From a virus, in IMG/VR virus record IMGVR_UViG_3300025411_000008, positions 62,001 through 126,000 of that record: a DNA stretch of 64,000 nucleotides. The stretch is one strand, 5' to 3'. This document shows, one piece after another, positions 48,722 to 63,314 of the stretch. Under the pieces are notes generated by a model. It saw only the letters and a list, made by a program, of their open reading frames with translations, made no database searches and was not told where the DNA came from. The position numbers and the translations under genes are program-made. Within the stretch, counting starts at the first letter, position 1, and each line of letters starts with the position of its first letter.

Positions 48722-48754
48722 GGGGTATGAGCTCCACCCCACCCAACGGGCTCA
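48722..48754 (+). ncRNA. H-type pseudoknot family, copy 1
   Basis: Stem 1 GGGGT (48722-48726) with ACCCC (48736-48740); stem 2 TGAGC (48728-48732) with GCTCA (48750-48754); loops of 1, 3 and 9 bases. Copy 2 at 54110-54142 has CTGGT/ACCAG and TGAGT/GCTCA with the same loops, i.e. compensatory changes in stem 1. Confidence 0.6.
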
Positions 48755-49451: not shown

Positions 49452-49521
49452 TCTGCTGTAGCTCAGTGGTAGAGCAGCGAACGTATGTTCGTAGTCGTGG
49501 GTTCGATTCCCACCAGCAGTA
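49452..49521 (+). ncRNA. tRNA-like element with shortened anticodon loop
   Basis: Acceptor CTGCTG/CAGCAG (6 bp), D arm GCTC/GAGC with AGTGGTA loop, T arm GTGGG-TTCGATT-CCCAC: a tRNA shape. The anticodon arm is GCGAA/TTCGT with only six loop bases (CGTATG), or a six-pair stem with four; no ordinary seven-base loop with U33 can be drawn. Likely not a normal decoding tRNA. Confidence 0.6.
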
Positions 49522-49695
49522 CGATGGTGTTTTACACACACCAGGCAACAAGAGGACGCGCTCGGTCCGTCCGGCACCTCGGTCATAGCGACCCAAAGGA
49601 CTTCGGTCCCTCTGCACAGGGGTTCTGCTCCTGTGCAATAACACGGCCACCGACCGTGTCAGCGGTACTGACACACAACTAGATGGAGAACCATC

Positions 49696-54109: not shown

Positions 54110-54142
54110 CTGGTATGAGTTCCACCAGACCCAACGGGCTCA
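54110..54142 (+). ncRNA. H-type pseudoknot family, copy 2
   Basis: CTGGT (54110-54114)/ACCAG (54124-54128) and TGAGT (54116-54120)/GCTCA (54138-54142), loops A, TCC and ACCCAACGG. Same as copy 1 with compensatory stem 1 changes. Confidence 0.6.
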
Positions 54143-55287: not shown

Positions 55288-55357
55288 TCTGCAGTAGCTC
55301 AATGGCAGAGCACTACACCCATGGTGTAGGGGTGGAGGTTCGATCCCTCCCTGCAGT
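55288..55357 (+). ncRNA. tRNA-like element, Met-like anticodon CAT with C33
   Basis: Acceptor CTGCAG/CTGCAG, D arm GCTC/GAGC with AATGGCA loop, T arm GGAGG-TTCGATC-CCTCC. Anticodon stem CTACA/TGTAG with loop CCCATGG, anticodon CAT, but C instead of U at position 33; the loop can also pair further, leaving three bases. May be a modified tRNA-Met or a processing element. Confidence 0.55.
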
Positions 55358-55423
55358 ACGGTAACACACCACCCCGGTGTGTACCCGGTGTCACCAAGCA
55401 CCGTAACTAGAAGGAAACCTATT

Positions 55424-58168: not shown

Positions 58169-58474
58169 ATGATCAAGACTGAAGTTCAAGAGCATGCTGA
58201 AGGTCTGCGGTCCCGTATCAATGAGGCCACAGACCTTGACTCGCTCAAGGAATACAGCCTCAAGATCGTAGACCTTCTCACCAAGATTGACCAGTTGGTT
58301 GGTCTTGGTGAGGAGCGTTGGGTCTTGGCTGACTGTAAGTTAGAAGCTGTAACTACGGTCGCCAATGGTCTCATTGAGCTGCTTGAAGCCATTGAGGAAT
58401 CGTCTACGATTCTAAACAATGTCTCTTCTTACAGCGCAGCTATCGCAGCTGCTCGAGACATCATCGAGGCCTAG
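58169..58474 (+). CDS. Small coiled-coil protein (101 aa)
   Basis: Almost all-helical with leucine heptads (LRSRINEATDLDSLKEYSLKIVDLLTKIDQLVGL). Cytoplasmic. AAGGAGAGAAG precedes the ATG. It lies last before the large gene-free tract. Unknown. Confidence 0.5.
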   Translation: MIKTEVQEHAEGLRSRINEATDLDSLKEYSLKIVDLLTKIDQLVGLGEERWVLADCKLEAVTTVANGLIELLEAIEESSTILNNVSSYSAAIAAARDIIEA

Positions 58475-58709
58475 TTGTAACCTCCCTCGGCTAATTGGGG
58501 GAGCCTTAGCTCTTGCGAACTAACTCCACGCATTTACACACACAGTGTGTATTTGACGTGGGGTTGGTTGGCAGACGATGTGGAGGGTTATCGTTAAAAC
58601 CCTAGCCTGGGCTATGCCGTTGAGGAGGAGATGGCGGTTGCATACTATGGCTTGTCCTGGAAAAGATATGGAAGCTGGTAGATGGTTAAACTATCTATAA
58701 AGCCCTCAG

Positions 58710-58727
58710 CATAAGGGGAAGCTTATG
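58710..58727 (+). repeat. Array hairpin 1
   Basis: CATAAG-GGGAAG-CTTATG, 6 bp. Preceded by CTCAG, followed by TAGGA. Confidence 0.7.
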
Positions 58728-58957
58728 TAGGAAAATCAAGGCGCCTTAAAGGCCTATCGCAGAGGAGCGGAGAATCCATACTTGTTGGTAGATAGACATA
58801 GGAACCATCGTGCAAGCGAGCGCGTGTACAGGTGAAGACGCTCAAGCCTATGCATGCTTCGTTGTGTGCATAGGCCCTGTTGTGTTTACAGTGACCAGAG
58901 ATGCAGGCGTGCAGTTTTATACGCAACGCACAGGAGTCGAGTTAAACACAATCTCAG

Positions 58958-58975
58958 CATGAGGGGAAGCTCATG
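58958..58975 (+). repeat. Array hairpin 2
   Basis: CATGAG-GGGAAG-CTCATG. Same loop as copy 1; stem bases changed in pairs. Confidence 0.7.
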
Positions 58976-59146
58976 TAGGAGCGGAGGCTCTCCTTAAACC
59001 TGCACACTTAAATCCCGGCCACCGATGTAAAACGTGGTAGCTGCGCTAGCTTAACTGGCGATCCCGTACATGCTTCATTGTGTGTACGGGAGCAACTCAC
59101 GGCGAGTATACCAGACCCAGCTGGCAACCTGTAAAGGCCATCTCAC

Positions 59147-59164
59147 CATACGGGGAAGCGTATG
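59147..59164 (+). repeat. Array hairpin 3
   Basis: CATACG-GGGAAG-CGTATG. Compensatory change at two pairs relative to copy 2. Confidence 0.7.
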
Positions 59165-59274
59165 GAGGCAATCAGAAGCCTACTTAATAGACGGGAAGCT
59201 ACTGCCAGAGTGTAGCCGGTGCAATCCGTTAGCTTGCTAATACTTCCTAGTTGGTATGATACAAAGGAACTAGG

Positions 59275-59307
59275 GTGGTCCTGGGTATGACCACTGGAAA
59301 ACTGCCC
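59275..59307 (+). ncRNA. Pseudoknot family 4, copy 1
   Basis: GTGGTC/GACCAC around loop CTGGGTAT; loop GGGT can pair with GCCC (59304-59307) after a short AAAACT spacer. Same loop and tail at 59430 and 62119. Confidence 0.55.
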
Positions 59308-59372
59308 TCTTTCTCTTCAACCACGATGCACCGGCATATGAGCCTTATGAGATCGTTGGTTGATAGACTCGG

Positions 59373-59390
59373 CATGAGGAGCAACTCATG
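59373..59390 (+). repeat. Array hairpin 4
   Basis: CATGAG-GAGCAA-CTCATG, followed by GTAGG-TTGG-CCTAC, a perfect 5-bp second hairpin. Confidence 0.7.
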
Positions 59391-59429
59391 TAGGTTGGCC
59401 TACTACCTGTGTGTTACACGAGTGTATGG

Positions 59430-59456
59430 CGTCCTGGGTATGACGATAAACTGCCT
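59430..59456 (+). ncRNA. Pseudoknot family 4, copy 2
   Basis: CGTC/GACG around CTGGGTAT, then ATAAACTGCCT. Second pairing is GGGT with GCCT (two wobbles). Confidence 0.5.
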
Positions 59457-59513
59457 CCTTTCTTGTGTTCACATGGACAGCATATGCGCGATGAGATGCG
59501 AACACGGACTCAA

Positions 59514-59531
59514 CATAAGGAGCAGCTTATG
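59514..59531 (+). repeat. Array hairpin 5
   Basis: CATAAG-GAGCAG-CTTATG, followed by a GTAGG...CCTAC pairing and CTTAAA. Confidence 0.7.
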
Positions 59532-59682
59532 TAGGAAGTGGTAGATGCCTACTTAAAAAATACACGTTACCCAGAACGATACTTTGGTAGCTTCTTAGTT
59601 GGTAGTTGGAACTATGGTGCTAGTAAGCGCGAGTACTGGTGAAGACGCTTAACACCTGGGCATGTGTATAAAAGGCCTACTA

Positions 59683-59816
59683 GGGTGTGTAGTTTAAGCT
59701 GGAAAAACCCTTAGTAGCTGTGACATCCAACTATCTAAATATAGAAAATTGTTGGTTAGCACTCAGAACTTACGTCACGGTTAAAGGGAATGGTGGTTCG
59801 AACCCACCCACACCCA
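59683..59816 (+). ncRNA. tRNA-like RNA with greatly enlarged anticodon arm
   Basis: GGGTGTG (59683-59689) pairs with CACACCC (59809-59815) as a full 7-bp acceptor stem, followed by TA at positions 8-9, a D-arm-like GTTT/AAAC (59692-59708), and a T arm GGTGG-TTCGAAC-CCACC (59792-59808). Where the anticodon arm should be, CCCTT (59708-59712) pairs with AAGGG (59784-59788) around about 70 extra bases that pair further: GTGAC/GTCAC and CCAAC/GTTGG. It closes the repeat tract. Not an ordinary tRNA; too short for a tmRNA. Confidence 0.6.
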
Positions 59817-59848
59817 CGCAGTACCAAACCAACTAGTAAGGAGATATG

Positions 59849-60543: not shown

Positions 60544-60610
60544 ACTATGTGTAAGTAGCACAGAAGGCAGCCATGCCTACAAAATGGCAATCTAACAAGG
60601 AGTATATACT

Positions 60611-60973
60611 ATGACTGCAATGTCAGATGAAATTAAGCTTGCAATCCTTCAGGACCAGCTTAAGAACATTACAATGGGCGTGAAGATGATGATCACCATC
60701 CAAGCGACCTTTGAGGCACAGCGTCAGTACATGGCTGGTATCTTGCCAGATGAACTCAAGAATGTCCCAGAGACAGATGACTTCAAGAACATGTACATGG
60801 CTGCAAGTGAGGCATACAACGAAGTAGTCCGTAACATGACTATCTTTGTTGACAACATGACTCAGGTGTTTGATTACAGTTTTGCTGACACCCTGCCAAC
60901 AGACAAGGAAGGCTTCCAGAAGATGGCTGAAGAATTGTCTGAGCAGGTTGACAAGTACAACGAAATCAACTGA
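60611..60973 (+). CDS. Unknown helical protein (120 aa)
   Basis: Helical with a Met-rich surface (MTAMSDEIKLAILQDQLKNITMGVKMMIT...) and acidic C-terminus. AAGGAGTATATACT precedes ATG 60611. It ends one base before the next gene's ATG region. Not recognised. Confidence 0.5.
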   Translation: MTAMSDEIKLAILQDQLKNITMGVKMMITIQATFEAQRQYMAGILPDELKNVPETDDFKNMYMAASEAYNEVVRNMTIFVDNMTQVFDYSFADTLPTDKEGFQKMAEELSEQVDKYNEIN

Positions 60974-61283: not shown

Positions 61284-61345
61284 GCTTCAGTTTGGTAACG
61301 AAGTTCAACAGTTCGATTCTGTTGTGGAGCACTCCCAAGTAGGGA
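61284..61345 (+). ncRNA. tRNA-like minihelix 1 plus CCC-GGG hairpin
   Basis: GCTTCA (61284-61289)/TGGAGC (61325-61330) and a T arm CAACAG-TTCGATT-CTGTTG (61306-61324), with a short linker in place of D and anticodon arms. Followed by TCCC-AAGTA-GGGA. Two relatives at 62587 and 63250 have changed but complementary stems. Confidence 0.65.
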
Positions 61346-61368: not shown

Positions 61369-62109
61369 ATGCCGACAGAAATCATCTGGGTACCAAAACC
61401 CGATGGTAAGACCTGGAATTCCAGTCGCACTCGTGACTTGGTTGACCTGGCTTTCACCATTGAGAGGAAGAGTGATGACCACACCATGATCATGATTCGT
61501 TGCTCTAAGAACAGCGATGAAAATGGTCGTGCGAGGACTGTCATTGGTCGCGTCTACACTAAGAGTGTGTTAGCTGCACGGGAACTTGTTAAGCAAGTTG
61601 TCAGTGAAGCTAACACGAAACCAAATCAGGAAGAAGCACGCAGTTGGCTCCTAAACCAAATGCTGGGATTCTCTCTTGATTTGTCTCCAGAGGGTCGACC
61701 ATTGAATCCAGAAATCATCAAGGATGGTGCATGGGTTACCAAGAATACTCTTGGTATGGTTGTGGCAAGCGAGACACCAGTCGCAGAGGAAGAGTTCGAC
61801 GTTGCAGCACACGTTGAGTCCCTGCCTCTTGAGATTGACCTTAGCAAGCCAGTCACTGAGACACCAAGTAGTGGTATCTACAAGGTGGATCCAACGACTG
61901 AGTCATGGATTTCATGGGGTGATATTGCAGATGACCTTAGCAAGTCAATTGCAGCGAAGCGTGCTGCAATCGCAATGAAGGAGACTGTCGAAGCAGTTAT
62001 GGAAACAGCTACACCTGTAGCTGAGCCAGTTGCTGAGGTAGTATCCACAGAAGCACCGCAGTTCATTACCATTAATGGTAAGCAAATCCCGATTGCCTAT
62101 CCCAAATAG
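61369..62109 (+). CDS. Unknown protein (246 aa)
   Basis: From ATG 61369 (AATAGTAGGAAGG before it). N-terminal beta-alpha domain (MPTEIIWVPKPDGKTWNSSRTRDLVDLAFTIE), then helical ARELVKQVVSEANTKPNQEEAR, a Pro/Ala/Val-rich tail and a small C-terminal VFITINGKQIP. Upstream frame runs through the minihelix RNA and is not used. Unknown. Confidence 0.5.
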   Translation: MPTEIIWVPKPDGKTWNSSRTRDLVDLAFTIERKSDDHTMIMIRCSKNSDENGRARTVIGRVYTKSVLAARELVKQVVSEANTKPNQEEARSWLLNQMLGFSLDLSPEGRPLNPEIIKDGAWVTKNTLGMVVASETPVAEEEFDVAAHVESLPLEIDLSKPVTETPSSGIYKVDPTTESWISWGDIADDLSKSIAAKRAAIAMKETVEAVMETATPVAEPVAEVVSTEAPQFITINGKQIPIAYPK

Positions 62110-62586: not shown

Positions 62587-62648
62587 GCCCTAGTCTGGCG
62601 ATGAAGTATGGTGGTTCAATTCCATCTTAGGGCGCTCCCAGGTAGGGA
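62587..62648 (+). ncRNA. tRNA-like minihelix 2 plus CCC-GGG hairpin
   Basis: GCCCTAG (62587-62593)/TTAGGGC (62627-62633), T arm GGTGG-TTCAATT-CCATC (62610-62626), then TCCC-AGGTA-GGGA. 7-bp acceptor. Same plan as 61284 and 63250. Confidence 0.65.
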
Positions 62649-63249: not shown

Positions 63250-63314
63250 ACCCTAGCCAGACGGTGGTGATGTATGCTAGTTCGATTCTAGCTTAGGGTG
63301 CTCCCAAGTTGGGA
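63250..63314 (+). ncRNA. tRNA-like minihelix 3 plus CCC-GGG hairpin
   Basis: ACCCTAG (63250-63256)/TTAGGGT (63293-63299), T arm GCTAG-TTCGATT-CTAGC (63276-63292), then TCCC-AAGTT-GGGA. Same plan as copies at 61284 and 62587. Confidence 0.65.

Follow-up and report, generated by a model that had tools for sequence, protein, structure and literature searches.

Location and gene content of the tract

The window, that is, the whole 64,000-nt stretch of DNA analysed here, belongs to a virus record of 131,916 bases (IMG/VR IMGVR_UViG_3300025411_000008). Within a run of plus-strand genes it contains a non-coding tract (58475-59845, plus strand) in which H-type pseudoknots and hairpins are predicted to form a modular array. 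The tract is flanked by two plus-strand genes, one encoding a 101-aa protein and ending at 58474, the other encoding a 77-aa protein and starting at 59846. This is the widest intergenic gap of the window (1358 nt; the runner-up spans 415 nt). An earlier note, made from the sequence without database searches, had described the tract as gene-free, and this holds: the longest ORF inside it does not exceed 89 aa, and no long ORF recurs across the tracts of related phages.

Promoter and terminator signals in the tract do not rise above those of shuffled sequence. Minimum free energy (MFE) folding z-scores along the region are no better for the tract than for the flanking genes; the signal described below consists of covariation and pseudoknots. 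At the 5′ end of the tract, a 30-nt segment of the hairpin region (58517-58546) recurs as a 93% identical copy about 7 kb downstream in the same genome (G000:C1:127295-127324).

A gene upstream of the tract encodes a protein of 496 aa, which we label VWA-like on the basis of a DxSxS motif recognized by eye (Pfam gave no match). With its counterparts in Bixzunavirus mycobacteriophages, e.g. Tonenili, the portal protein shares 39-40% identity, and from this likeness an actinobacterial host is likely. Neither the tract, nor the region, nor the VWA-like protein has a match among 50,697 named phage records.

Element A, a recurrent H-type pseudoknot

The tract is composed of five copies of an element designated A, three of C, two of D, one of E and one of F, with hairpins between them. 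The earlier note had reported five hairpins of six base pairs at 58710, 58958, 59147, 59373 and 59514, and their stems, loops and start positions are exactly as claimed. The hairpins are thus real, but each is part of a pseudoknot, and the array exceeds that description in length and variety. All five units lie on the plus strand: copy 1 (58705-58749; loop contact CUC/GGG, stem CAUAAG/CUUAUG, second helix P2 AGG/CCU, then UUAA), copy 2 (58953-58998; CUC/GGG, CAUGAG/CUCAUG, P2 AGGAG/CUCCU, UUAAA), copy 3 (59142-59187; CUC/GGG, CAUACG/CGUAUG, P2 AGGC/GCCU, CUUAA), copy 4 (59368-59408; CUC/GAG, CAUGAG/CUCAUG, P2 AGGU/ACCU) and copy 5 (59509-59556; CUC/GAG, CAUAAG/CUUAUG, P2 UAGG/CCUA, CUUAA). They are spaced 141-248 nt apart and share 68-76% identity with the reference copy.

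Further copies were sought with a key comprising the loop and an upstream CYCRN motif only, with the stem letters left out. Thirteen phage tracts yielded 32 distinct copies, in which all 192 stem positions pair, compared with a mean of 150 and a maximum of 166 when the arms were re-dealt. The copies contain 15 distinct stems with four G-U and no A-C pairs, and changes on both sides were seen at all six stem pairs. The covariation score is 0.577 against 0.246 for shuffled alignments, none of 500 shuffles being as high. The paired base changes from which the earlier note argued for selection on structure therefore extend to the related phages, whose stems covary rather than changing at random.

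The CUC immediately 5′ of the stem can pair with loop bases 1-3 in 28 of 28 copies examined (variants CUC/GGG, CUC/GAG, CCC/GGG and CUU/AGG). Together with the 6-bp stem, this helix makes element A a classical H-type pseudoknot with a first loop of 2 nt and a last loop of 3 nt. The CUC-loop helix varies little, and the sequences support it less strongly than the 6-bp stem. The loop consensus GRGMAR is conserved while the stems drift. P2, a second helix of at least 4 bp that starts no more than 3 nt on, follows 28 of the 32 copies (shuffled mean 6.3, maximum 13); it is usually AGGN/NCCU, and UUAA often comes after it. A GTAGG...CCTAC pairing had been ascribed to every unit: the second pairing stands for the majority, but its literal sequence is confined to window copies 4 and 5. 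The frequent CTTAA noted earlier is present 3′ of copies 1, 2, 3 and 5.

Over 383 kb, a covariance model of A detected 39 copies (several of them absent from the model's own alignment). All lie in tracts and on the plus strand, and a single 13-bit match fell outside. The window carries five of the 39, L136 six, L137 and L147 four each, L139, L140 and L146 three each, L141, L142, L144, L145 and L148 two each, and L150 one. In the diverged copies (L139 copies 1-2, L140 copies 1-2, L142 copy 1 and L146 copy 1) the loop pairing is intact by eye, save in L139 copy 1. No further copy was detected by the model elsewhere in the 132-kb genome, and in a further 726 kb from viruses and MAGs it gave one 17-bit match and nothing more.

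Other pseudoknots and hairpins of the tract

The earlier note had also mentioned other hairpins that recur with compensatory changes; beyond element A the tract carries the covarying pseudoknots C, D, E and F, all on the plus strand. Element C is a hairpin with the loop CUGGGUAU, in which GGGU pairs with a downstream GCCC. Its copies are located at 59274-59307 (GGUGGUC-cu-GGGUa-GACCACU-ggaaaac-UGCCC), 59430-59456 (CGUC-cu-GGGUa-GACG-auaaac-UGCCU) and 59652-59679 (ACAC-cu-GGGC-au-GUGU-auaaaa-GGCCU). Ten arm pairs of its second helix occur in the tract family, including GAGC/GCUC, GUAC/GUAC, GGAC/GUCC and GAAC/GUUC. The two copies of D (58810-58843, GUGCA-agc-GAGCG-cg-UGUAC-aggugaaga-CGCUC; 59616-59651, GGUGCU-ag-UAAGCG-cg-AGUACU-ggugaaga-CGCUUA) are 82% identical over 45 nt, and their changes are paired. 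For the second stem of E (59012-59038, AUC-ccg-GCCAC-c-GAU-guaaaac-GUGGU) five arm pairs were found among the relatives, including GCUAU/AUAGC. The first stem of F (58574-58603, GACGAU-gug-gAGGGUu-AUCGUu-aaa-ACCCU) appears in relatives as ACGAT/ATCGT, ATGAT/ATCAT and ATGAT/GTCAT, and its second stem is invariant. A further element, U2, was found in the relatives. The arms of C, D, E, F and U2 contain 26 G-U and no A-C pairs. These arms were chosen by eye and their complete pairing is partly by construction, so the evidence lies in the number of differing arm pairs and in the 26:0 ratio of G-U to A-C.

Pseudoknots were also counted by a fixed rule. A permissive scan gave too many chance matches, and a stricter one separated the tract from shuffles. 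Across 11 tracts it returned 99 strong candidates, where shuffled sequence gave 37.6 ± 5.1 (maximum 52), and at the strictest limit 49 against 8.8 ± 2.7 (maximum 16). The reverse strand gave 50 strong candidates and 17 at the strictest limit.

The hairpins between the pseudoknots include two copies of hairpin B, at 58846-58875 (GCCUAUGC...GCAUAGGC) and 59058-59091 (UCCCGUAC...GUACGGGA), both on the plus strand. At the 3′ end of the tract lies an isolated T-arm-like plus-strand hairpin (59792-59808, GGTGG-TTCGAAC-CCACC), of which no counterpart was found in the relatives' tracts. We considered whether a tRNA-like acceptor and T arm (CGTGGG at about 58557 with CCCACG at about 59813) close the tract as a whole, and rejected this as a general plan of the array, as it occurs in the window only and the relatives' tracts have no T arm.

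Conserved position and modular variation in related phages

A search of IMG/VR with the hairpin pattern identified 11 further phage contigs and one near-identical copy; near-duplicate records among the relatives are L016 (of the window), L143 (of L142) and L149 (of L148). Alignment of the VWA-like protein comprised 16 loci, and in all 15 that extend past the VWA-like gene the hairpin unit lies downstream, in an unchanged gene neighbourhood.

Within this conserved place the content of the tract is variable. The relatives carry one to six A units in shuffled order, and blocks of the window tract match them at 69-100% identity while differing in position and order; for example, segments 59365-59455 and 59429-59535 are swapped in order relative to L137. 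Copy 1 of hairpin B shares 31 identical nt with L147, where they stand elsewhere in the array and where identity of the VWA-like protein is only about 50%. The 3′ end of the tract in relatives is usually occupied by a C unit, immediately ahead of the ribosome site of the gene that follows.

Element C outside the tract

With a strict pattern, C was found in 73 viral stretches and in nine stretches among 84,980 cellular genomes. Its wide occurrence in viruses was noted in IMG/VR contigs L017-L134 and L160-L210. All C counts refer to this strict pattern, because a loose one must include chance matches. In each of the 70 distinct copies, two or more further pairs adjoin the required C-G, for which the chance expectation is about 14%. 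Since the strict pattern fixes GGGU and GCCC, covariation of that helix is demonstrated within the tract family only.

Where a stop codon lies nearby (73 cases), the median distance from it to C is 10 nt, with a gap between stop and stem of mostly 4-9 nt, and the median distance from C to the next start codon is 29 nt. What comes next on the 3′ side of C is a start codon, a TATAAT resembling a promoter, or a tRNA gene. The upstream genes belong to 35 unrelated protein clusters and the downstream genes to 48, and C-adjacent proteins include Hsp20, capsid, DUF932, ferritin-like and CHAP lysin proteins. In the window, a further C directly follows the stop codon at 62109. A role for C as a stop-codon readthrough pseudoknot was rejected, as the in-frame continuation is no longer than 24 codons in 63 of the 73 cases. 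Two C-bearing viral contigs carry Pistol ribozymes (L060, 1089-1151; L073, 7080-7126).

tRNA-like elements and additional pseudoknots near the tract

Three armless tRNA-like elements were distinguished in the window (61284-61330, 62588-62633 and 63251-63299), each after a stop codon. They consist of an acceptor-like stem, a 16-19 nt linker and a perfect T arm, with no D or anticodon arm and no CCA, and each has a small CTCCC/GGGA hairpin on its 3′ side. Similar elements occur in L136, L137, L141, L142, L144, L145 and L146. The one at 5403-5445 of L142 is the armless counterpart of the window tRNA gene at 55288-55359: in other phages a full tRNA gene precedes the ATPase and VWA-like genes, and in L142 an armless element takes this place. 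The CTGCAG acceptor stem common to both suggests that the armless elements derive from tRNAs. For another tRNA gene of the window (49452-49522) the anticodon was called as two bases (ta), and similar calls were obtained in L009 and L016.

Two further pseudoknots of the window (48722-48754 and 54110-54142) lie shortly 3′ of stop codons and share TGAGYTC...ACCCAACGGGCTCA, with first stems GGGGT/ACCCC and CTGGT/ACCAG, respectively. Another strong candidate (60565-60588, AGGC-a-GCCAT-GCCT-acaaa-ATGGC) is located just 5′ of the gene at 60611.

Possible function of the tract

Covariation across the relatives strongly supports the earlier proposal of a structured RNA, and the tract is almost certainly an RNA under selection for its structure. 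A train of small RNAs, a host RNA sponge and RNA packaging, which the earlier note also raised, are each no more than possible. That its inverted repeats act as DNA, in an origin, packaging or recombination site, is highly improbable. Such a site would account for the repeats, for the recombination of modules and for a tract in which no promoter was found, but not for 30 G-U against no A-C pairs, for a pseudoknot excess far stronger on the plus strand, or for an A loop contact preserved through changes. Riboswitch-like or translational control of the downstream 77-aa gene by a leader is very unlikely as well: the final C unit does adjoin the ribosome site in relatives, but the tract is far too long and too variable for this, and C is also found upstream of tRNAs and of genes in 48 unrelated clusters.

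We tentatively propose that the tract may be a transcribed, nuclease-resistant RNA that separates and protects the messages of the operon, a reading that we consider plausible and slightly less than probable; its transcription, stability and effect are what we infer. The tract would be co-transcribed with the neighbouring plus-strand genes, and its compact pseudoknots would resist nucleases, so that it could persist as a stable RNA once the flanking messages have been cut or have decayed. The surviving RNA would keep apart the messages on either side and shield their ends. It would thus be an enlarged version of the apparent role of single C pseudoknots after stop codons, here and in many other phages. 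We count in favour of message protection that C copies stand shortly after the stops of unrelated genes and before the next starts, that a C unit forms the 3′ end of the tract in relatives, and that C follows the stop at 62109. Against it we count the ordinary MFE z-scores and the length of 0.5-1.4 kb, which is costly for a mere spacer; the location of C beside stops could also mirror the sole free space in compact genomes.

In the sequence searched, element A turned up in the tract alone and nowhere as an isolated spacer; this points to a dedicated role over that of a generic spacer and keeps two other explanations alive. One, which we regard as rather doubtful, is that the tract acts in trans as a large ornate RNA comparable to GOLLD or ROOL, with a stable unit fold, perhaps self-assembling, and its own job in infection. 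The tract is big, pseudoknot-rich, phage-encoded and conserved in place, with A restricted to it, and GOLLD and ROOL, phage RNAs that form RNA-only cages, offer a precedent (PMC12286853). One to six units in shuffled order are nevertheless hard to square with one fixed fold, and neither family gave a match. The other, in which A units act as decoys that titrate a host or phage RNA-binding protein, nuclease or defence factor, is unlikely. One unit repeated one to six times, with the loop GRGMAR kept while the stems drift, would suit a decoy, and a phage that escapes the ToxIN system via RNA-based mimicry has been described (PMC3475682); however, the majority of the tract pseudoknots are not A, and two of the five window loops lack the GGA of a CsrA-type sponge, which makes this form improbable.

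A wider reading is possible, although doubtful: many kinds of phages would punctuate their messages with compact post-stop pseudoknots (and, in this phage group, with armless tRNA mimics), and this lineage would have strung such elements into a large modular RNA. Because related phages provide a natural series of one to six units, the role of unit number can be put to the test. The C unit leads beyond the tract to a widespread and apparently undescribed pseudoknot near viral stop codons, which may reveal how messages are protected or kept apart where phage operons are crowded.

Comparison with known RNAs

To our knowledge, very few large structured phage RNAs have been described. Rfam searches of the tract and its relatives, at gathering score and at E values up to 10, gave chance-level matches, with tRNAs outside the tract only; element C (CCUGGGUAUG...UAAACUGCCC) had no match in Rfam. 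Literature searches by sequence and by topic found no description of A or C. Neither ARAGORN nor Rfam detected a tRNA or tmRNA fold in the tract.

ToxI-type antitoxins and their phage mimics are likewise RNA pseudoknot arrays in a phage context. The tract differs in that its units are not tandem near-identical repeats (spacing 141-248 nt, 68-76% identity), and no Pfam match to a ToxN-like toxin was obtained in the neighbouring proteins. CsrB-type RNAs would have GGA in every loop, and copies 4 and 5 of A have GAGCAA and GAGCAG.

GOLLD (RF02032) resembles the tract as a large, elaborate RNA encoded by phages or prophages, and ROOL (RF03087) as a large phage RNA with multiple pseudoknots, both being large and pseudoknot-rich (PMC12286853). 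The GOLLD covariance model had no match up to E 10 in the tract or genome, and the tract does not lie in a GOLLD-type tRNA island, the nearest tRNA being the single gene at 55288, with none in the tract itself. The ROOL model had no match up to E 10 in the tract; it had none in the genome either, in a search whose control gave no signal and which by itself is weak. In contrast to GOLLD, the tract is a string of small repeated pseudoknots in variable number.

Consecutive H-type pseudoknots within one RNA are found in the upstream pseudoknot domains of tobamovirus 3′ regions and in tmRNA, where they are few and fixed. In the tract they number roughly twelve and fall into five or more kinds, and it belongs to a DNA phage whose relatives lack a tRNA-like closure. 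We know of no other large phage RNA in which H-type pseudoknots are strung together in variable copy number, and, judged by these sequence comparisons, the tract is a new, modular, pseudoknot-built phage RNA that stands outside the known RNA families.
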